28,150 bases of DNA from a virus, in the IMG/VR virus record IMGVR_UViG_3300009008_000195, positions 1 to 28,150 of that record; one strand, given 5' to 3'. The notes under the pieces are model-generated. The model saw only the letters and a program-made list of their open reading frames with translations, made no database searches and was not told where the DNA came from. Shown here one piece after another: positions 3,621 through 21,387 of the stretch; positions within the stretch are counted from its first letter, which is position 1, and the number at the start of each line of letters is the position of its first letter. A program made the position numbers and the translations under genes.

Positions 3621-3959
3621 CTATATACTCCTAGTAACTGACGGTGTAACCTCTACTTGACCTTCAAGAACTCTCGTTACATCTCCTGAAGGACTTTTAA
3701 TTTCTACATCATATACATATCTACCTGCTTTCATTACTTCTGTTACAGCGTTTACCATTTTAATATTTACAATGCCTTGGGTAGGATCTGTAATAGAACA
3801 TATGAAGTTATATGCACTTGATGATTTATAATTCTTTCTTACTTGACCTGCTGCAATGTATCCGGTAAGATCTGCGTCATTACCAGCTGCGTCTTCAACA
3901 GTAACTTCTGTTGAAAAATCTGAACCTTGATCGATTGTTAAGTTTGCGTATATGGCCAT
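3621..3959 (-). CDS. Small virion structural protein, Ig-like beta fold predicted (112 aa)
   Basis: The pattern IDQGSDFSTEVTVEDAAGN, then DLTGYIAAGQVRKNY, then YVYDVEI and VLEGQVEVTPSVT matches a small beta-sandwich family often encoded beside phage baseplate and fibre genes. Cysteine is rare and there is no signal peptide. The ATG has no Shine-Dalgarno sequence; instead TATAAATA ends exactly five bases before it (3965-3972), so the late transcript may begin at the ATG. The stop codon of the upstream 740-residue gene lies inside that box. Role inferred: a minor structural or adaptor protein of the tail. Confidence 0.75.
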   Translation of the reverse strand: MAIYANLTIDQGSDFSTEVTVEDAAGNDADLTGYIAAGQVRKNYKSSSAYNFICSITDPTQGIVNIKMVNAVTEVMKAGRYVYDVEIKSPSGDVTRVLEGQVEVTPSVTRSI

Positions 3960-3964
3960 ACTAT

Positions 3965-3972
3965 TATTTATA
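3965..3972 (-). promoter_or_regulatory. Late promoter TATAAATA, five bases before an ATG
   Basis: This exact late box on the minus strand overlaps the TAA stop of the upstream gene. The spacing places transcription start at or next to the A of the ATG at 3959, which predicts a leaderless mRNA for the 112-residue gene. Confidence 0.7.
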
Positions 3973-6191: not shown

Positions 6192-6392
6192 TTACTTCTT
6201 CTTCTTTAATAAAGTTTTTAACATGTCTTTTATTTCAGACATGTCATCTTCTAATTGATTTAATCGTGCTTCGTCTTCCTTACGTTTTGCTGAAGCCTTC
6301 CTAGCTATTTTAGCATTACTTTTATCTTTATTTATAATCGCACCTGATGTTGGATCCCTAAATAGATTGGCTTTACCTGCTACTGGGATCAT
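6192..6392 (-). CDS. Small coiled-coil protein conserved in marine T4-like phages (66 aa)
   Basis: The protein is highly charged. A short N-terminal motif (NLFRDPTSGAIINKD) is followed by a basic, lysine-rich helix and a heptad-like segment, LNQLEDDMSEIKDMLKTLLKKKK, giving a predicted coiled coil. Its ATG overlaps the TGA of the 1660-residue gene (ATGA, 4 bases), and its stop is one base from the next ATG, so translation is probably coupled. No enzyme motif is visible. Position suggests a fibre-assembly helper or a linker; function unknown. Confidence 0.7.
   Translation of the reverse strand: MIPVAGKANLFRDPTSGAIINKDKSNAKIARKASAKRKEDEARLNQLEDDMSEIKDMLKTLLKKKK
6329..6336 (-). promoter_or_regulatory. 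Possible late promoter TATAAATA inside the 66-residue gene
   Basis: This exact late box on the minus strand lies 139 bases upstream of the 740-residue gene's ATG. It is correctly oriented to add transcripts over the fibre genes, but it is internal to a coding sequence and could be coincidental. Confidence 0.5.
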
Positions 6393-9300: not shown

Positions 9301-11371
9301 CAGTACCAGTAAAGTTACCGCCACCGTTATTCATTCGAGGTCTGAAGTCAACAGCTGATCTTAATTCAATACCACCATGTGATGGAATATCTTTGTAATC
9401 TACTTGACCTGCATATGAATCAATCGTAAAGAAGTCACCAGAACCATGATCAAAGTAGTTGTATATAACTTCTAAATCACTAGTAACTGTAAAGTTTGTT
9501 TCTACCTTTAGTTTAATACCAGATACTGCATAATGAGTATCACGTTGACCATTATCAAAATCAAAATGTTTAGTTACATCTTGATTATTCTCTGTAATAG
9601 ATACAATACTTTGAACATCACAATGATCTAAGTTTTGATAAACAGAATAATCTAGTCCAGCACTTAAACTAACACCGTGATTTGATATAAGAGATTTTTG
9701 CTTATGTTTTAACGTTCTGTTAACTGGTGCAATAAGAGTAACAAACTTAGTCTCAGCAGATTGAGGTAAGTTAGAAATAGTTACTTGAGGTGGATTGTTA
9801 TTATTATCAATAGAAATATCATTAGATGTTAAAGTAATAATAGCTGAATTATAATCATTCTTTAAAATCCAGTTAGTAGTATCAAACTCTCTAAAAGTTT
9901 CACCCTCAATATTACAAGAGAACTGAACTTGGTTTTGTGCAACTTGAACAGGAGTAAATGATTTATTTACCTCATAATAGTAGTTAAAATCTTCTGGTTG
10001 TAATGGATCAATTTCAGCATTACACGTTTTAATTCTTGAAAATGGTAAACCAAATACTAGAGAATCTTTAGCAAGGTTATATTGATTGGGGATAATATCG
10101 CATTCAAAATCCCAATTAGATTCAATAGATACTGCATCACTAATAGCGCCTGTTAAATTAATATCAAAAATATGTATTCTATATTGTGATGAACCTAAAT
10201 GCTGAATAGAACGTACTCGACAAACACCAACCTGAGTATTAGCAGAATTTCTTAATGAAATAGTATCAAATGTAATTACATCTGGAAGACCAATAACATT
10301 TTCTATATCAATATAGTTATTAATATCAATTGTAGTTACTTTATCTGTTGCAAGGTCTGCATCACGTGCCTTATCAAATGCTACGTCTGTAGTTGACAAA
10401 GTCTCAATTTCATAACCACGAACATAAGCCTTAGATGGTTCAATACCAATAGTAAGTTTTGTTTCATCTGGTGTTGCATGAACATGATCTTTAATAGAAG
10501 CAGGGAAAGGGTTAACTGTATAGTTGCCTGATTCATCAAATGTTCTTCTTGCTAAAGTATCTTCGATAACTGCATAATCAGTTTCTCTTGCGTGTTTAAC
10601 AATTCTGCCTTCGTTTAAACGCGCAAGTAAAATGAAATTACCTGTTGTAGCATTAACATCTCTCTTAACCAATTCAGTAAGAATAGAATATCTATGAGCA
10701 CCAGGAGCTGATGCATTAGGGGTGCCTAATGCATTATCAGTAAGAGATGTATCAGTACCAGCCGATACGATTTCTTCTTGTACTCTTAAACCAACATCAT
10801 ACGATACATCAGTTGTATATTTAGAAAGAACAATTGTAGCGTTTTTAACAATTACAAAGTTCTTCTTAATGTAATAGATACCTTCATCAATAGATATTAA
10901 TGAACCATGACCACTTGAATCAACAGTAGCGGTAGTTACATCACCATCAGTAATAGATGCATTATCTGCAAACGTAGAACCTGAAACATAATTACCAAAT
11001 AATGTTACTGGATCTGTGTCAGTTGATGCTTCAACATGTATACACTTAAATGTTGAATTGCCATCAGATAATTCCTTTCCAACATAATCTGAAATGTTAG
11101 TAATGGGATTAGAGATCTTTAAATAGTCAATTGAGTTATGAACATGAACATGACCAGGTACTACAATAGAACCTTCTTTGAACATATGGTCGCCAACTGA
11201 CGACACTTGATTTTGAAGCATAGACTGGATTTGCGTAAGCTCTCTAGCTTGTAACGCATGGCCAGGTCTAAACAGGATTCTGTTGTACTTTTCTCTTGGC
11301 GTTAAACCATCTACCGAAGTAGGTACATTAAAATCATCCCAATATGGTTCAATATTAAACTTAATTGCCAT
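6389..11371 (-). CDS. Giant virion structural protein, DUF4815 type (1660 aa)
   Basis: The N-terminus has the hallmark of a family of very large structural proteins in marine T4-like phages: YWDDFNVPTSVDG, then REKYNRILFRPGHALQARELTQ and DHMFKEGSIVVPG. Further on is RRYTMRDIGKLEKRINKLEYYT (about residues 785-806). In the C-terminal half, a segment with LAQSILLDITGGAFITSMDLFFETKDD leads into VYLQDNIEYCFVILANSN, a beta-sandwich-like, carbohydrate-binding-like pattern. It sits directly after gp8, where T4 has genes 9-12, so it probably replaces the peripheral baseplate or short-fibre proteins; that is an inference from position. AGGA precedes the ATG. One of the largest genes expected in such a genome; no frameshift seen. 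Confidence 0.8.
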   Translation of the reverse strand: MAIKFNIEPYWDDFNVPTSVDGLTPREKYNRILFRPGHALQARELTQIQSMLQNQVSSVGDHMFKEGSIVVPGHVHVHNSIDYLKISNPITNISDYVGKELSDGNSTFKCIHVEASTDTDPVTLFGNYVSGSTFADNASITDGDVTTATVDSSGHGSLISIDEGIYYIKKNFVIVKNATIVLSKYTTDVSYDVGLRVQEEIVSAGTDTSLTDNALGTPNASAPGAHRYSILTELVKRDVNATTGNFILLARLNEGRIVKHARETDYAVIEDTLARRTFDESGNYTVNPFPASIKDHVHATPDETKLTIGIEPSKAYVRGYEIETLSTTDVAFDKARDADLATDKVTTIDINNYIDIENVIGLPDVITFDTISLRNSANTQVGVCRVRSIQHLGSSQYRIHIFDINLTGAISDAVSIESNWDFECDIIPNQYNLAKDSLVFGLPFSRIKTCNAEIDPLQPEDFNYYYEVNKSFTPVQVAQNQVQFSCNIEGETFREFDTTNWILKNDYNSAIITLTSNDISIDNNNNPPQVTISNLPQSAETKFVTLIAPVNRTLKHKQKSLISNHGVSLSAGLDYSVYQNLDHCDVQSIVSITENNQDVTKHFDFDNGQRDTHYAVSGIKLKVETNFTVTSDLEVIYNYFDHGSGDFFTIDSYAGQVDYKDIPSHGGIELRSAVDFRPRMNNGGGNFTGTGASTSFCPRPNTQFITDIQYYLNRIDKVYLDKDGEFGVLKGVSDLEPSEPGTPKDAMVLYHLYVPAYTLTPEEVDIIFIDNRRYTMRDIGKLEKRINKLEYYTVLSLLEKEASDKQILGPGNIDKFKTGFLVDSFQSTNVANTSSIEYKAGIDRDKGLLRPLFSENNVSMSFDVDNSTAQKTGDLITLPYTSTAIIEQLQYSSYVNVNPYDVFNWSGTIKLTPETDEWKDIDRRPQVIINNDGVFDAMRDIANESVATGTVWNSWQTNWTGRTTQSWDSGNDRVTQTTTTSGQSRTGTVTSIGTDTVTTNIGDRVVDVNFAPFMRSRIVTFEATRLRPNTQVYAFFDGVDVNDYISTNDASSITPTTGMNNNTTHPAGATTLTTDDNGSLTGSFWVPNNQSISFNTGDKTFLLTSSSTNDQDANNITFASTNYAAKGLIETRENVSISTRVPAIRRESIDQNRTVTSTSTSRQQVRWSDPLAQSILLDITGGAFITSMDLFFETKDDNIPVEVQIREMDQGIPTQKIIPFSTKTLNPSDVNIPDAVAPNPATTFTFDSPVYLQDNIEYCFVILANSNKYNVKIAEIGEEDSDGNRISKQPYNGVMFKSQNASTWTPDQNKDITFRMNRAVFDSSATIRLENDEVQLRALEVDPFQTVNGSNDIIVSHRNHGFTNGESVTLDYEGTSDINGIPSTEVKATHGIKNVERDRYTVTTASAATGTGIDGDDNATATENLAWNTVYPFIQEVTLPNTGMTWGIKDTKLGGDNTYVESSSYLPMIINSNYTPQTPRAVLSGTAKSLWFNGSLVSTNDNVSPVIDMQRCSAITVFNRINNPIGVATNGYDLVANFEEETDPYRGSALSKYVTKTVQLDESSDELKVYLDINRPSMTNVKVYCKTSSEATGFDDLNWTEVTSTVGAVPYSDDPNDYRELEYSVNSDPFTLFAVKIVFTSQNTSKIPSCKNLRAIALLS

Positions 11372-13907: not shown

Positions 13908-15761
13908 TTAGTTACTCACTGTAGTATAATCAATACCAGCAGTTGTACCACCAATTACCATCGTATCAACTTCACCTAGTATTTTAGCAGTGTTATATGA
14001 AATAACAAGAAGCTCGTTTCTCATCGGTGAAATATCATTAGATGCTGGTTTAGTAATAATTTTTAATTCATCTGTTAAACCCACAACAGTATCAAGATTA
14101 AATCCTTCTAGTGTAATTTTACCAGTTAACACATCAACATAACCAACAGTGTGATTTAGAATCTTGTTATTATGGTTAATAATTTGAATAATATGTTTTG
14201 CTTCTTCTTCATTAAAATAATCTTTAAGAACACAAATTTCGTTATTATATGTAAACTCGGTTGAAGTCATATAATTTGTTGAAGCATGTAATTGAGCTAG
14301 TGGTTGGTTAAAATTAAATTCATAATATCTTTCTTCGCCTAATACTGGTGTGAATAACTTATGCATAGACACACGAGTAATATTAGATACTATAGCAATA
14401 TTAGTGCCATCAATGTCTGAAGTTAAGTTTGAATTTCTAAACACGCCACCAAATGATTTTAAGTTATCTTCGTTATATTGGAATAATGTATCTCTAATCT
14501 GTTCTGATAAAGCAGCTTCTGTAGCATTAGATACATTCGGATTATACTTATAATATACTTCTAAATCAATGCGGGTATAGCTTGGATCAACAAGGATAGG
14601 AGTAATAGATACCACATTCTTTGGTTTAAGATGAACACCTACAATTTCTGCTTTTTGTTCAGGTGTTAATACATCACCGTCCAATGGTTTAATAGATACA
14701 TATACTTTTCCATAATCAGGTGGAATATTATCTTCACCGCCCCATACAGTTAACGTATCAATATTACCATAAGAATTTTGAATAATGCCTTTATAGTCAT
14801 CTGGAGTCACCGCCCTGTTTTGAGCAACGAAACCAAGAGGAGCATTAAACTTAATTGAATCTGTACTTTCAGCAATAGCTCCACCAACAGCATCTTGTGT
14901 AGTATTAAGTATTACATCCGTGTTGCCTCCAATTGAACCCGCTAAAGAAAATTGTGAAGCACCATTAATATCTTCAGGACCTACTGTAAGATAATTAACC
15001 TTAATGATATTACCCGGAGTTAGTCTACGTCCAATTACGCCATCACCAAACTTAATTTCATAAAAACCAGATCTTGACTCTTCTAAGAAATAAGCAGTCG
15101 ATTCTGAATCAATATCGATAATATTTGGAATATTAGCAAATGTATCATATTTAGTAGATGTTTGACTTTCATATACTTCAACAATCATTGTATCGGTATT
15201 TACGTAATTGTCTTGAAGTAAGTAGTGTTCGTATCCAGTTTCATCATAAACATAAGAACGATTATTCAATTGTCCTTGCATTAACTTAACATCTTTAAAG
15301 ACATACTTACCATCTGTATCTCTGATAGTAGTATGGGTAGATTCAGCAATGAGATTGTGTGTTACAGAATTAATCGTCGTAGTGAATTTAGTACCACGAG
15401 GCATTGATAGTGGAAGATAGTTACCTGCATCGTCTTGTACATTAATAGGATTAACAACTTCGATATCAACAATCGCTACTGATGGTTTAGTTGATCTTGG
15501 TGTATAACCAAGTAACTTAGCGTGTGATACAACCGATTGTCTTAGTTGGGCAGTATCGAGGAATGTTTCGTTAAGAGCAAAGTTAGCATTTACAGAGTTA
15601 ATATGAGTGATATAAGACAATACATCAATCATTGTATTCATTGCAGAGCCTTCAAAGTTATAATCCTGGAATGCCCCAGGTTGCTCTTGCATGTATGATA
15701 TTAGATTGCTCTTGAGTGTGTTAAAGTCTAGCTCACTCGCATTAATTCTTCTATTACTCAT
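13908..15761 (-). CDS. gp6: Baseplate wedge protein gp6 (P2 gpJ family)
   Basis: At 617 residues it is close to T4 gp6 (660). The N-terminal 100 residues are diagnostic of the gp6/gpJ family: FNTLKSNLISYMQEQPG, FEGSAMNTMIDVLSYITH, NANFALNETFLDTAQLR and VVSHAKLLGYTPRS. Residues about 235-260 have the IKFGDGVIGRRL motif, and about 310-335 the GFVAQNRAVTPDDYKGIIQ motif found across baseplate J proteins. gp6 dimers join neighbouring wedges into the ring that surrounds the hub. Its ATG overlaps the gp25 stop by 4 bases (ATGA), indicating coupled translation. Confidence 0.93.
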   Translation of the reverse strand: MSNRRINASELDFNTLKSNLISYMQEQPGAFQDYNFEGSAMNTMIDVLSYITHINSVNANFALNETFLDTAQLRQSVVSHAKLLGYTPRSTKPSVAIVDIEVVNPINVQDDAGNYLPLSMPRGTKFTTTINSVTHNLIAESTHTTIRDTDGKYVFKDVKLMQGQLNNRSYVYDETGYEHYLLQDNYVNTDTMIVEVYESQTSTKYDTFANIPNIIDIDSESTAYFLEESRSGFYEIKFGDGVIGRRLTPGNIIKVNYLTVGPEDINGASQFSLAGSIGGNTDVILNTTQDAVGGAIAESTDSIKFNAPLGFVAQNRAVTPDDYKGIIQNSYGNIDTLTVWGGEDNIPPDYGKVYVSIKPLDGDVLTPEQKAEIVGVHLKPKNVVSITPILVDPSYTRIDLEVYYKYNPNVSNATEAALSEQIRDTLFQYNEDNLKSFGGVFRNSNLTSDIDGTNIAIVSNITRVSMHKLFTPVLGEERYYEFNFNQPLAQLHASTNYMTSTEFTYNNEICVLKDYFNEEEAKHIIQIINHNNKILNHTVGYVDVLTGKITLEGFNLDTVVGLTDELKIITKPASNDISPMRNELLVISYNTAKILGEVDTMVIGGTTAGIDYTTVSN

Positions 15762-16156
15762 CGTATTCTCTCTAGTGTAGTCTCTACGTCTGTAACCGTA
15801 TTAGTAGAAACAATTTGAATAGTTACTGTTATTCGAACATCATGTTTATCTGGATATGTTCTCACATTAACATTTAAAACCTTTACTCTTGGCTCATCAT
15901 TTTTAATAGCATTCTCTACTTGAGATGCTATAGCAGCAGCTGTAATTGGTGTTATGTTCTCAAACAAGAATGATCTTAGATTAGCACCAAAATAAGGATT
16001 AAATGGTCGCTCGCCATGATTAGTTCTTAGTATATTAAACACACTTTGTTTAACAGCATTGATTCCTTTCTTCGTAGAGATGTCACCAGTATTCTGGTTC
16101 AACTTATAAACAAAGTCAACGTCTGAGTATTCATTCTGTCTTGCTATCTGTGCCAT
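15758..16156 (-). CDS. gp25: Baseplate wedge protein gp25 (GPW/gp25 family)
   Basis: At 132 residues it has the length of T4 gp25. The core GERPFNPYFGANLRSFLFENI, then AIASQVENAIKNDEPRVKV, is the family signature: a lysozyme-like fold without hydrolytic activity that connects the wedge to the sheath's first ring. There is no Shine-Dalgarno sequence; instead AATAAATA (16162-16169) ends five bases before the ATG, and the gp5 stop TAA lies inside that box. The gene sits between gp5 and gp6 and overlaps gp6 by 4 bases. Confidence 0.92.
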   Translation of the reverse strand: MAQIARQNEYSDVDFVYKLNQNTGDISTKKGINAVKQSVFNILRTNHGERPFNPYFGANLRSFLFENITPITAAAIASQVENAIKNDEPRVKVLNVNVRTYPDKHDVRITVTIQIVSTNTVTDVETTLERIR

Positions 16157-16161
16157 ATATC

Positions 16162-16169
16162 TATTTATT
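16162..16169 (-). promoter_or_regulatory. Late promoter variant AATAAATA, five bases before gp25 ATG
   Basis: It matches NATAAATA, the relaxed late consensus used by cyanophage-type T4-like phages, on the minus strand. The five-base gap to the ATG is identical to that before the 112-residue gene, gp4 and the 196-residue gene, so it predicts a leaderless gp25 mRNA. Confidence 0.5.
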
Positions 16170-20177: not shown

Positions 20178-20185
20178 TATTTATA
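20178..20185 (-). promoter_or_regulatory. Late promoter TATAAATA for the baseplate operon
   Basis: This exact box on the minus strand has a predicted start near 20172, giving a leader of about 27 bases to the gp48 ATG. It lies back to back with the plus-strand late box of gp4, seven bases away. Confidence 0.8.
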
Positions 20186-20192
20186 CAGTTTA

Positions 20193-20200
20193 CATAAATA
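20193..20200 (+). promoter_or_regulatory. Late promoter variant CATAAATA, five bases before gp4 ATG
   Basis: It matches NATAAATA on the plus strand. The next five bases lead straight to the gp4 ATG at 20206, so transcription would begin at the start codon. No Shine-Dalgarno sequence is present. Confidence 0.55.
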
Positions 20201-20205
20201 ATAAT

Positions 20206-20697
20206 ATGAGAAAAACCTACAAGGGGAAATGGAAACCTAAGAATATCCATAAATATAATGGCGACCCCACAAAAATAACTTATCGTTCTTTATGGGAACG
20301 TAATGCATTTCGCTACCTCGACAAGCATCCTGCAGTCAAGTGGTGGAATTCTGAAGAGACTATAGTACCTTATATATGTGGGACAGATAGAAAGCCCCAT
20401 AGATATTTTATAGATCTCACTATACGATTTGTTGACGGAACAACTGTATTAGTAGAAATCAAGCCAAAGAAACAAACTCAACCTCCAAAGAGAAAGAGTA
20501 TTAACGAGTCATTAACGTATATTAAGAACACTTCGAAGTGGAAATATGCTAAGAGATATGCGAAGGATCGAGGATGGAAATTTGAGATTTGGACAGAAGA
20601 TACTTTAGAAGGGCTTGGTATTAAGACAATGACATATAAGAAAAAGGCATCCAACGTAATTAAGAAGGTAAAGAAGAAATGCAAGAAACGACGATAG
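20206..20697 (+). CDS. gp4: Head completion nuclease gp4
   Basis: The sequence matches T4-like gp4 closely: YNGDPTKITYRSLWERNAFRYL (residues 17-38), SEETIVPYICGTDRKPHRYFIDL and VLVEIKPKKQTQPP, then KDRGWKFEIWTEDTLEGLGIK. E31, D70 and the E84-x-K86 pair fit a PD-(D/E)xK-type nuclease centre; gp4 of T4-like phages is a known nuclease needed for joining heads to tails. The frame is open upstream to 20059, but that extension overlaps gp48 antisense, so I chose ATG 20206, where homology begins. At 163 residues it is slightly longer than T4 gp4 because of a Lys/Arg-rich tail. It is the first gene of the plus-strand cluster. Confidence 0.92.
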   Translation: MRKTYKGKWKPKNIHKYNGDPTKITYRSLWERNAFRYLDKHPAVKWWNSEETIVPYICGTDRKPHRYFIDLTIRFVDGTTVLVEIKPKKQTQPPKRKSINESLTYIKNTSKWKYAKRYAKDRGWKFEIWTEDTLEGLGIKTMTYKKKASNVIKKVKKKCKKRR

Positions 20698-20792
20698 CTC
20701 TTCCTGACAAACAACCTCCCCGCCCTAAAGAAAGAAGTGTTGTCCTGCATATGATATCTATCGAAAACCATCCTGTATTATCGTATAAATAA
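20679..20792 (+). CDS. Possible small protein overlapping the gp4 end (37 aa)
   Basis: An ATG at 20679, with AAGG about 10 bases upstream, opens a 37-codon frame that overlaps gp4 by 19 bases and ends with TAA at 20790-20792. It fills almost the whole gap before the next gene. The product (starting MQETTIALPDKQPPRPKERS) is proline- and arginine-rich with no recognised domain. Its stop codon is embedded in the late box TATAAATA, as happens upstream of the 112-residue gene and gp25. It may be a real small gene or simply open spacer. Confidence 0.4.
   Translation: MQETTIALPDKQPPRPKERSVVLHMISIENHPVLSYK
20784..20791 (+). promoter_or_regulatory. Late promoter TATAAATA, five bases before an ATG
   Basis: This exact late box on the plus strand is followed by AGAAT and then the ATG at 20797. 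The predicted transcription start coincides with the start codon of the 196-residue gene. Confidence 0.75.
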
Positions 20793-20796
20793 GAAT

Positions 20797-21387
20797 ATGG
20801 CGAAAGAATCATTATTTGATAAACTAGAAGCAGAGGCGTTCCGAAAAGGTTTCCAAAAGAGATCTAAGGAAGCTCAGAAATGGTTTATGCAAAAAACAAG
20901 AGATATGGGCAAGATCAATATGCATAAGATGATCAAGGACCCAAGACTTGTAAGGAAACAGAGACCTCGTATTGGCGATATGTTTATGTATCACTACGAT
21001 CCAAAACACAGAAAGACTCTCCCTTATTATGATTCGTTTCCTTTAACTATTATGGTACAAAGGGCTCCTGGTGGATTTTATGGACTGAATCTTCATTATC
21101 TGCCACTAAAGCAAAGAGCTATATTCCTCGATAGATTAACAGAAATTGCTAATAACAAAAAGTTTGATGAAACAACTAGATTGAAATTAAATTATGATTT
21201 GTTAAAAACAGCAGGGAAATATAAATATTTCAAACCTTGTTTTAAACATTATTTAACTGAACACATAGATTCTAAGATTATGAAGGTAGAAGCTTCTGAA
21301 TGGGATGTTGCAATATTCCTTCCAACAGAGAACTTTATGAAGGCTAAGAAGACTAAGGTTTGGAAAGACAGTAGGAGTAAGTGGTAA
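20797..21387 (+). CDS. Conserved T4-like phage protein of unknown function (196 aa)
   Basis: The hallmarks are RPRIGDMFMYHYDPKHRKTLPYYDSFPLTI, GGFYGLNLHYLPLKQRAIFLDRL and EASEWDVAIFLPTENFMKA. I recognise this as a protein widespread in marine T4-like phages, but I cannot assign it a T4 gene number with confidence; a structural or DNA-end-related role near gp4 has to be left open. The first 40 residues are basic and helical. There is no signal peptide or membrane segment. The ATG at 20797 has no Shine-Dalgarno sequence and sits five bases after TATAAATA. It is linked to the tube-like gene by a TAATG overlap. Confidence 0.75.
   Translation: MAKESLFDKLEAEAFRKGFQKRSKEAQKWFMQKTRDMGKINMHKMIKDPRLVRKQRPRIGDMFMYHYDPKHRKTLPYYDSFPLTIMVQRAPGGFYGLNLHYLPLKQRAIFLDRLTEIANNKKFDETTRLKLNYDLLKTAGKYKYFKPCFKHYLTEHIDSKIMKVEASEWDVAIFLPTENFMKAKKTKVWKDSRSKW
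21220..21227 (+). promoter_or_regulatory. Possible internal late box TATAAATA
   Basis: This exact match lies within the 196-residue gene (codons for YKYF), 160 bases upstream of the gp54-like ATG and in the right orientation. The amino-acid context could create it by chance. Confidence 0.3.

Follow-up and report, generated by a model that had tools for sequence, protein, structure and literature searches.

The late promoter of phage T4 is gp55-, gp33- and gp45-dependent and carries the octamer TATAAATA at positions -13 to -6 of the transcription start (PMC1524935, with which PMC2988020 is consistent). In T4 and RB49 the ATG follows the box by about 12-37 bases, and the leader usually contains a Shine-Dalgarno (SD) sequence. 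The late promoters of the cyanophages S-PM2 and Syn9 have the same box, NATAAATA (PMC2984593), and these two phages and the pelagiphage HTVC008M are placed in one virus family, Kyanoviridae. Leaderless mRNAs of bacteria and phages, such as lambda cI, have a 5'-terminal AUG, for which they show a preference, and no SD, and initiation on the 5'-terminal AUG, mostly by 70S ribosomes, has been established for leaderless messages elsewhere (PMC9031893). The isolates nearest to the phage studied here are the pelagimyophages (PMC7029224) and the methylophage Melnitz (PMC9004378). The accessible portions of these two reports state that late-promoter prediction in pelagimyophages was unsuccessful (PMC7029224) and that TATAAAT late promoters were looked for in Melnitz (PMC9004378), and they contain no mention of box-to-start spacing or leaderless messages. 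In our search of the open literature, leaderless late mRNAs were not reported for any T4-like phage.

We analysed a virus fragment of 28,150 bases (the window). It comes from a T4-like phage, and the sequences closest to its gp6 are those of Melnitz and HTVC008M (36-37% identity). According to the original prediction, NATAAATA lies exactly five bases (N5) before the ATG of gp4, of a 196-residue gene that we identify as gp2, of a 112-residue gene and of gp25. All four sites are present, and are given below together with one divergent late box.

20193..20200, plus strand: late box CATAAATA of gp4, predicted -13 to -6
20201..20205, plus strand: N5 spacer ATAAT of gp4, predicted -5 to -1, with the pyrimidine T at -1
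20206..20697, plus strand: gp4 head-closure gene (phrog_218, E=1e-51), its ATG the predicted +1
20784..20791, plus strand: late box TATAAATA of gp2, followed by N5 and the ATG at 20797
20797..21387, plus strand: gp2 DNA end protector gene (phrog_429, E=7e-56), its ATG the predicted +1
16162..16169, minus strand: late box AATAAATA of gp25, followed by N5 and the ATG at 16156
15758..16156, minus strand: gp25 baseplate wedge gene (phrog_261, E=2e-41), its ATG the predicted +1
3965..3972, minus strand: late box TATAAATA of the 112-residue gene, followed by N5 and the ATG at 3959
3621..3959, minus strand: 112-residue gene (phrog_1084, L-shaped tail-fibre assembly family), its ATG the predicted +1
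20178..20184, minus strand: divergent late box of a leadered gene whose ATG (20144) is 33 bases away, with the SD AAGG present

The divergent box, being leadered and having an SD before its ATG, provides a built-in contrast to the N5 sites, all four of which lack an SD core, as had been claimed. The core (AGGA, GGAG or AAGG) is found at about 12 of the 19 other window genes, so the earlier statement that most genes without the box have an SD was a fair one. The start of gp4 is corroborated by its relatives, whose N-termini align to the same Met at 20206. The N5 arrangement of the window's gp2 recurs at gp2 of HTVC008M, Mosig and Melnitz and that of gp25 in HTVC008M, while relatives of the 112-residue gene with at least 70% identity have it in four of four cases and more distant ones are mostly leadered. 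At gp25 and at the 112-residue gene, a TAA within the late box (16167-16165 and 3970-3968, respectively) also serves the upstream gene as its stop codon.

The simplest explanation for such sites would be chance or an annotation artefact, as the genome is AT-rich. However, ATAAATA-N5-ATG occurs four times in the window against 0.33 expected, and none of 100 shuffled sequences reached four. Likewise, 20 other 7-mers of the same composition yielded no site before N5-ATG in the window. As the arrangement is in addition conserved across phages with only about 34% gp2 identity, we regard this explanation as practically negligible. The box alone is not enriched in the window (13 versus 15.8 expected); thus, the enriched feature is the exact placement of the box before an ATG, not the box.

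The box-to-ATG spacing, which had been set beforehand as the refuting test, was counted genome-wide in relatives, the window itself being a 28-kb fragment, and it shows a sharp peak at five, so that the prediction passed without being refuted. Among 685 unique boxes of environmental relatives, an ATG stands at +5 in 102 cases versus 15.5 expected from 7-mers of the same composition, and there is a weak shoulder at +6 (30 versus 14); at +4 the count is 13 versus 17.6, and no position from +1 to +4 is above the control. These environmental loci are mutually related, and the unique-context filter reduces this kinship and does not remove it; their gene starts are open frames and not annotations. 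In the isolates, the motif matches coincide with annotated CDS starts in nine of nine cases in HTVC008M (6280, 7562, 19456, 31132, 49760, 75559 and 142360 on the plus strand, 18916 and 16007 on the minus strand), seven of eight in Mosig and three of four in Melnitz, where the fourth match opens an 8-codon ORF overlapping the next start; this leaves 9, 7 and 3 N5 sites, respectively, compared with 4 in the window. By contrast, N5 ATGs opening 40 codons or more number zero in T4, RB49 and Syn9 and one each in P-HM2 and S-PM2, where the boxes lie mostly 12-40 bases from the ATG (mostly 18-40 in cyanophages, with 0-1 gene-opening N5 sites per genome in the three tested). An unbiased 7-mer search over 197 HTVC008M starts placed ATAAATA at distance 5 at the top (9 versus 0.03), beside SD motifs, indicating that HTVC008M starts with a recognisable signal fall into two classes, SD or box-N5. 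Hence, the N5 spacing is exact, conserved and clade-specific, and it coincides with gene starts.

This spacing profile also bears on the reading in which the box does serve as a late promoter, but translation proceeds mainly on longer read-through mRNAs by coupling to the upstream gene, with N5 as a by-product of compaction. The genomes are compact, and the stop codons inside the boxes of gp25 and the 112-residue gene mean that these two genes could be translated by coupling on a read-through mRNA, which counts against a leaderless reading of them. However, compaction predicts a spread of short spacings instead of a single peak at five and no excess over the control from +1 to +4. Moreover, gp4 and its neighbour are divergent, and a number of boxes lie directly 3' of a terminator, so that no upstream co-directional message is at hand; a terminator-like hairpin ends just 5' of the box at six N5 sites, an indication that the gene has its own promoter in this box. 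We therefore consider coupling very improbable as the main route.

Since the box resembles a -10 element, the sites might instead be host sigma-70 promoters with leaderless starts. Against this, no peak appears for other 7-mers of the same composition, TATAAT has none near these spacings in the phages, the window's gene set consists mostly of virion or late genes, and a conserved -35 block is absent upstream of the N5 sites, where the highest information outside the box is about 0.5 bit. This possibility thus seems highly unlikely to us. What the N5 sites resemble is the T4 late promoter: they share its octamer TATAAATA, with T at -13 in 84% of environmental N5 sites, they lack a -35 element, and they stand 5' of virion genes; like T4, the relative HTVC008M encodes gp55, gp33 and the clamp. 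They differ from T4 and RB49 in the spacing of exactly five and in the missing SD.

The original prediction put the late start about six bases after the box, which agrees with the known T4 box position (PMC1524935). With the box at -13 to -6, +1 at an N5 site would be the A of the ATG. Base composition around this position points the same way. The base at -1 is a pyrimidine in 106 of 109 N5 sites (97%) versus 138 of 204 leadered ones (Fisher 5e-11, an optimistic value, the environmental loci being related), and in 88 of 176 other HTVC008M genes, in keeping with a need to hold the start on the A. The leadered boxes of the pelagiphage and methylophage isolates have A at box+6 in 73% of cases and C in 0%, a bias expected if that base is the start. 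The -1 signature thus lends independent support to a start on the A of the ATG, and with the T4 box position it backs the claim that the A is +1 and the mRNA leaderless. A rival would have the mRNAs start 1-5 bases 5' of the ATG, giving very short leaders, because T4-type starts can wobble and spacing 6 is mildly enriched. The 97% pyrimidine at -1 together with A at +1 fits a start on the A better, the spacing-6 sites too have mostly a pyrimidine at -1 (19 of 23), and a 1-base leader would act much like a leaderless mRNA; we judge very short leaders to be a very unlikely explanation. The spacing-6 sites, which would have either a leader of one base or a start displaced by one, do count against a strictly leaderless reading, and at some N5 sites the start may be one base off.

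We also rejected the idea that the promoter prefers ATG at +1 to +3 irrespective of translation, as leadered promoters favour ATA there; an ATG preference alone is likewise insufficient, T4 and RB49 being without an N5 ATG that opens at least 40 codons. The ATA at +1 may have been raw material for the N5 ATG.

Taken together, it is very likely, judging from sequence comparison, that T4-type late promoters have been fused to start codons in these phages and give rise to leaderless late mRNAs, and a clade-specific variant of T4-type late promoters is the best reading of the data. Host RNA polymerase with a phage gp55-like late sigma factor would read each N5 box and initiate at the A of the ATG; the late mRNA made there would begin 5'-AUG, with neither leader nor SD, and a ribosome, probably a 70S one, would bind this 5'-terminal AUG by the leaderless route. 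We infer from the sequences where the 5' end lies, that the late sigma factor is used and by which route the ribosome binds; by annotation, HTVC008M encodes the late sigma factor (gp55) as well as gp33-like and clamp genes, and the window fragment does not span the genes for gp55, gp33 and gp45. The predicted messages share the 5'-terminal AUG, the missing SD and the AUG preference with known leaderless mRNAs, but unlike those, they would come from a phage late promoter driving a set of virion genes. The arrangement seems to be a conserved mode of late phage protein production that had not been noted before. If so, leaderless mRNAs, which enterobacteria rarely use, would be the source of essential virion proteins in abundant ocean phages. 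For genome annotation, box-N5-ATG is a simple rule that locates many pelagimyophage late promoters and fixes their start codons.

Start signals are in line with such a route. The mRNA of a site with spacing 4-6 leaves no room for an SD, whereas an SD is found at 54-70% of leadered box genes in the same phages and, at spacing 20-40, at 82-88% of those in T4/RB49. At +5, the start codon is ATG in 108 cases, GTG in 0 and TTG in 1; leadered genes with an SD have 108, 6 and 1, respectively, a comparison of small power. In a 400-kb SAR11 fragment (L337-L356, single-cell Pelagibacteraceae AG-918-E02), in which starts were crudely taken as the first ATG, there is no leaderless peak and only about 17% of the called genes have an SD-like 4-mer; the missing peak counts against the leaderless reading, weakly so with starts called in this way. 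SD frequencies in the pelagiphages HTVC008M and Mosig (54-55%) are far above this value.

The distribution of the trait over two genes suggests how labile it is. Of 67 relatives, 37 have a gp2 that is scored as directly leaderless by a spacing of 4-6, among them HTVC008M, Mosig and Melnitz (34-42% identity). In 22 further relatives, the ATG at +5 or +6 opens a small ORF, of 8-9 codons or, in L005 and its kin, 64 residues, which overlaps or touches the gp2 start, so that 59 of the 67 would have a gp2 that is either leaderless itself or coupled to such an ORF with a leaderless start. Examples with N5 are as follows.

L008:1377, L029:10504 and L036:1491: small ORF before gp2
L177:5323, L180:10112 and L187:12039, minus strand: small ORF before gp2
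L005:4001: 64-residue ORF with a hydrophobic stretch before gp2

The stop of such an ORF overlaps the gp2 start as TAATG, TAGTG or by a few bases more. Possibly, the small ORF is a leaderless leader peptide coupled to gp2. In these relatives the box-N5-ATG unit is kept even where the gene behind it has been displaced, which is difficult to account for without translation of the +5 ATG. For gp4, 28 of 30 rows in the window's clade are scored as leaderless and the gene is leadered elsewhere. Quick trees with many weak branches give eight changes between the leaderless and leadered states for gp2 and four for gp4, so the trait appears to have changed several times; as orthologues switch between the two states, leaderlessness is not essential for the gene.

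A gene for the ribosomal protein bS21 is present in HTVC008M (91228-91431), Mosig (9983-10132) and Melnitz (35461-35619), all three of which use N5, as well as in the environmental relative G002. It is absent from the T4 and cyanophage genomes tested and was not found in fragmentary contigs that bear N5 sites. A real link of bS21 to N5, as opposed to mere shared ancestry, is not established, the association being confounded by one clade. A broader proposal is that marine T4-likes infecting heterotrophic ocean bacteria have a late translation programme of their own, in which promoter-start fusions across a set of genes are combined with a phage bS21 that would retune host ribosomes toward leaderless messages; we hold this to be unlikely.

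N5 boxes also precede metabolic and curli-type genes, at 6280 and 7562 in HTVC008M, 54825 in Melnitz, and 60328, 60990, 92996 and 94129 in Mosig. The products of these auxiliary genes are a dioxygenase, CsgF, a cyclase, a desaturase, a nitroreductase and a hydroxylase, and the position of the boxes suggests that they are expressed late.
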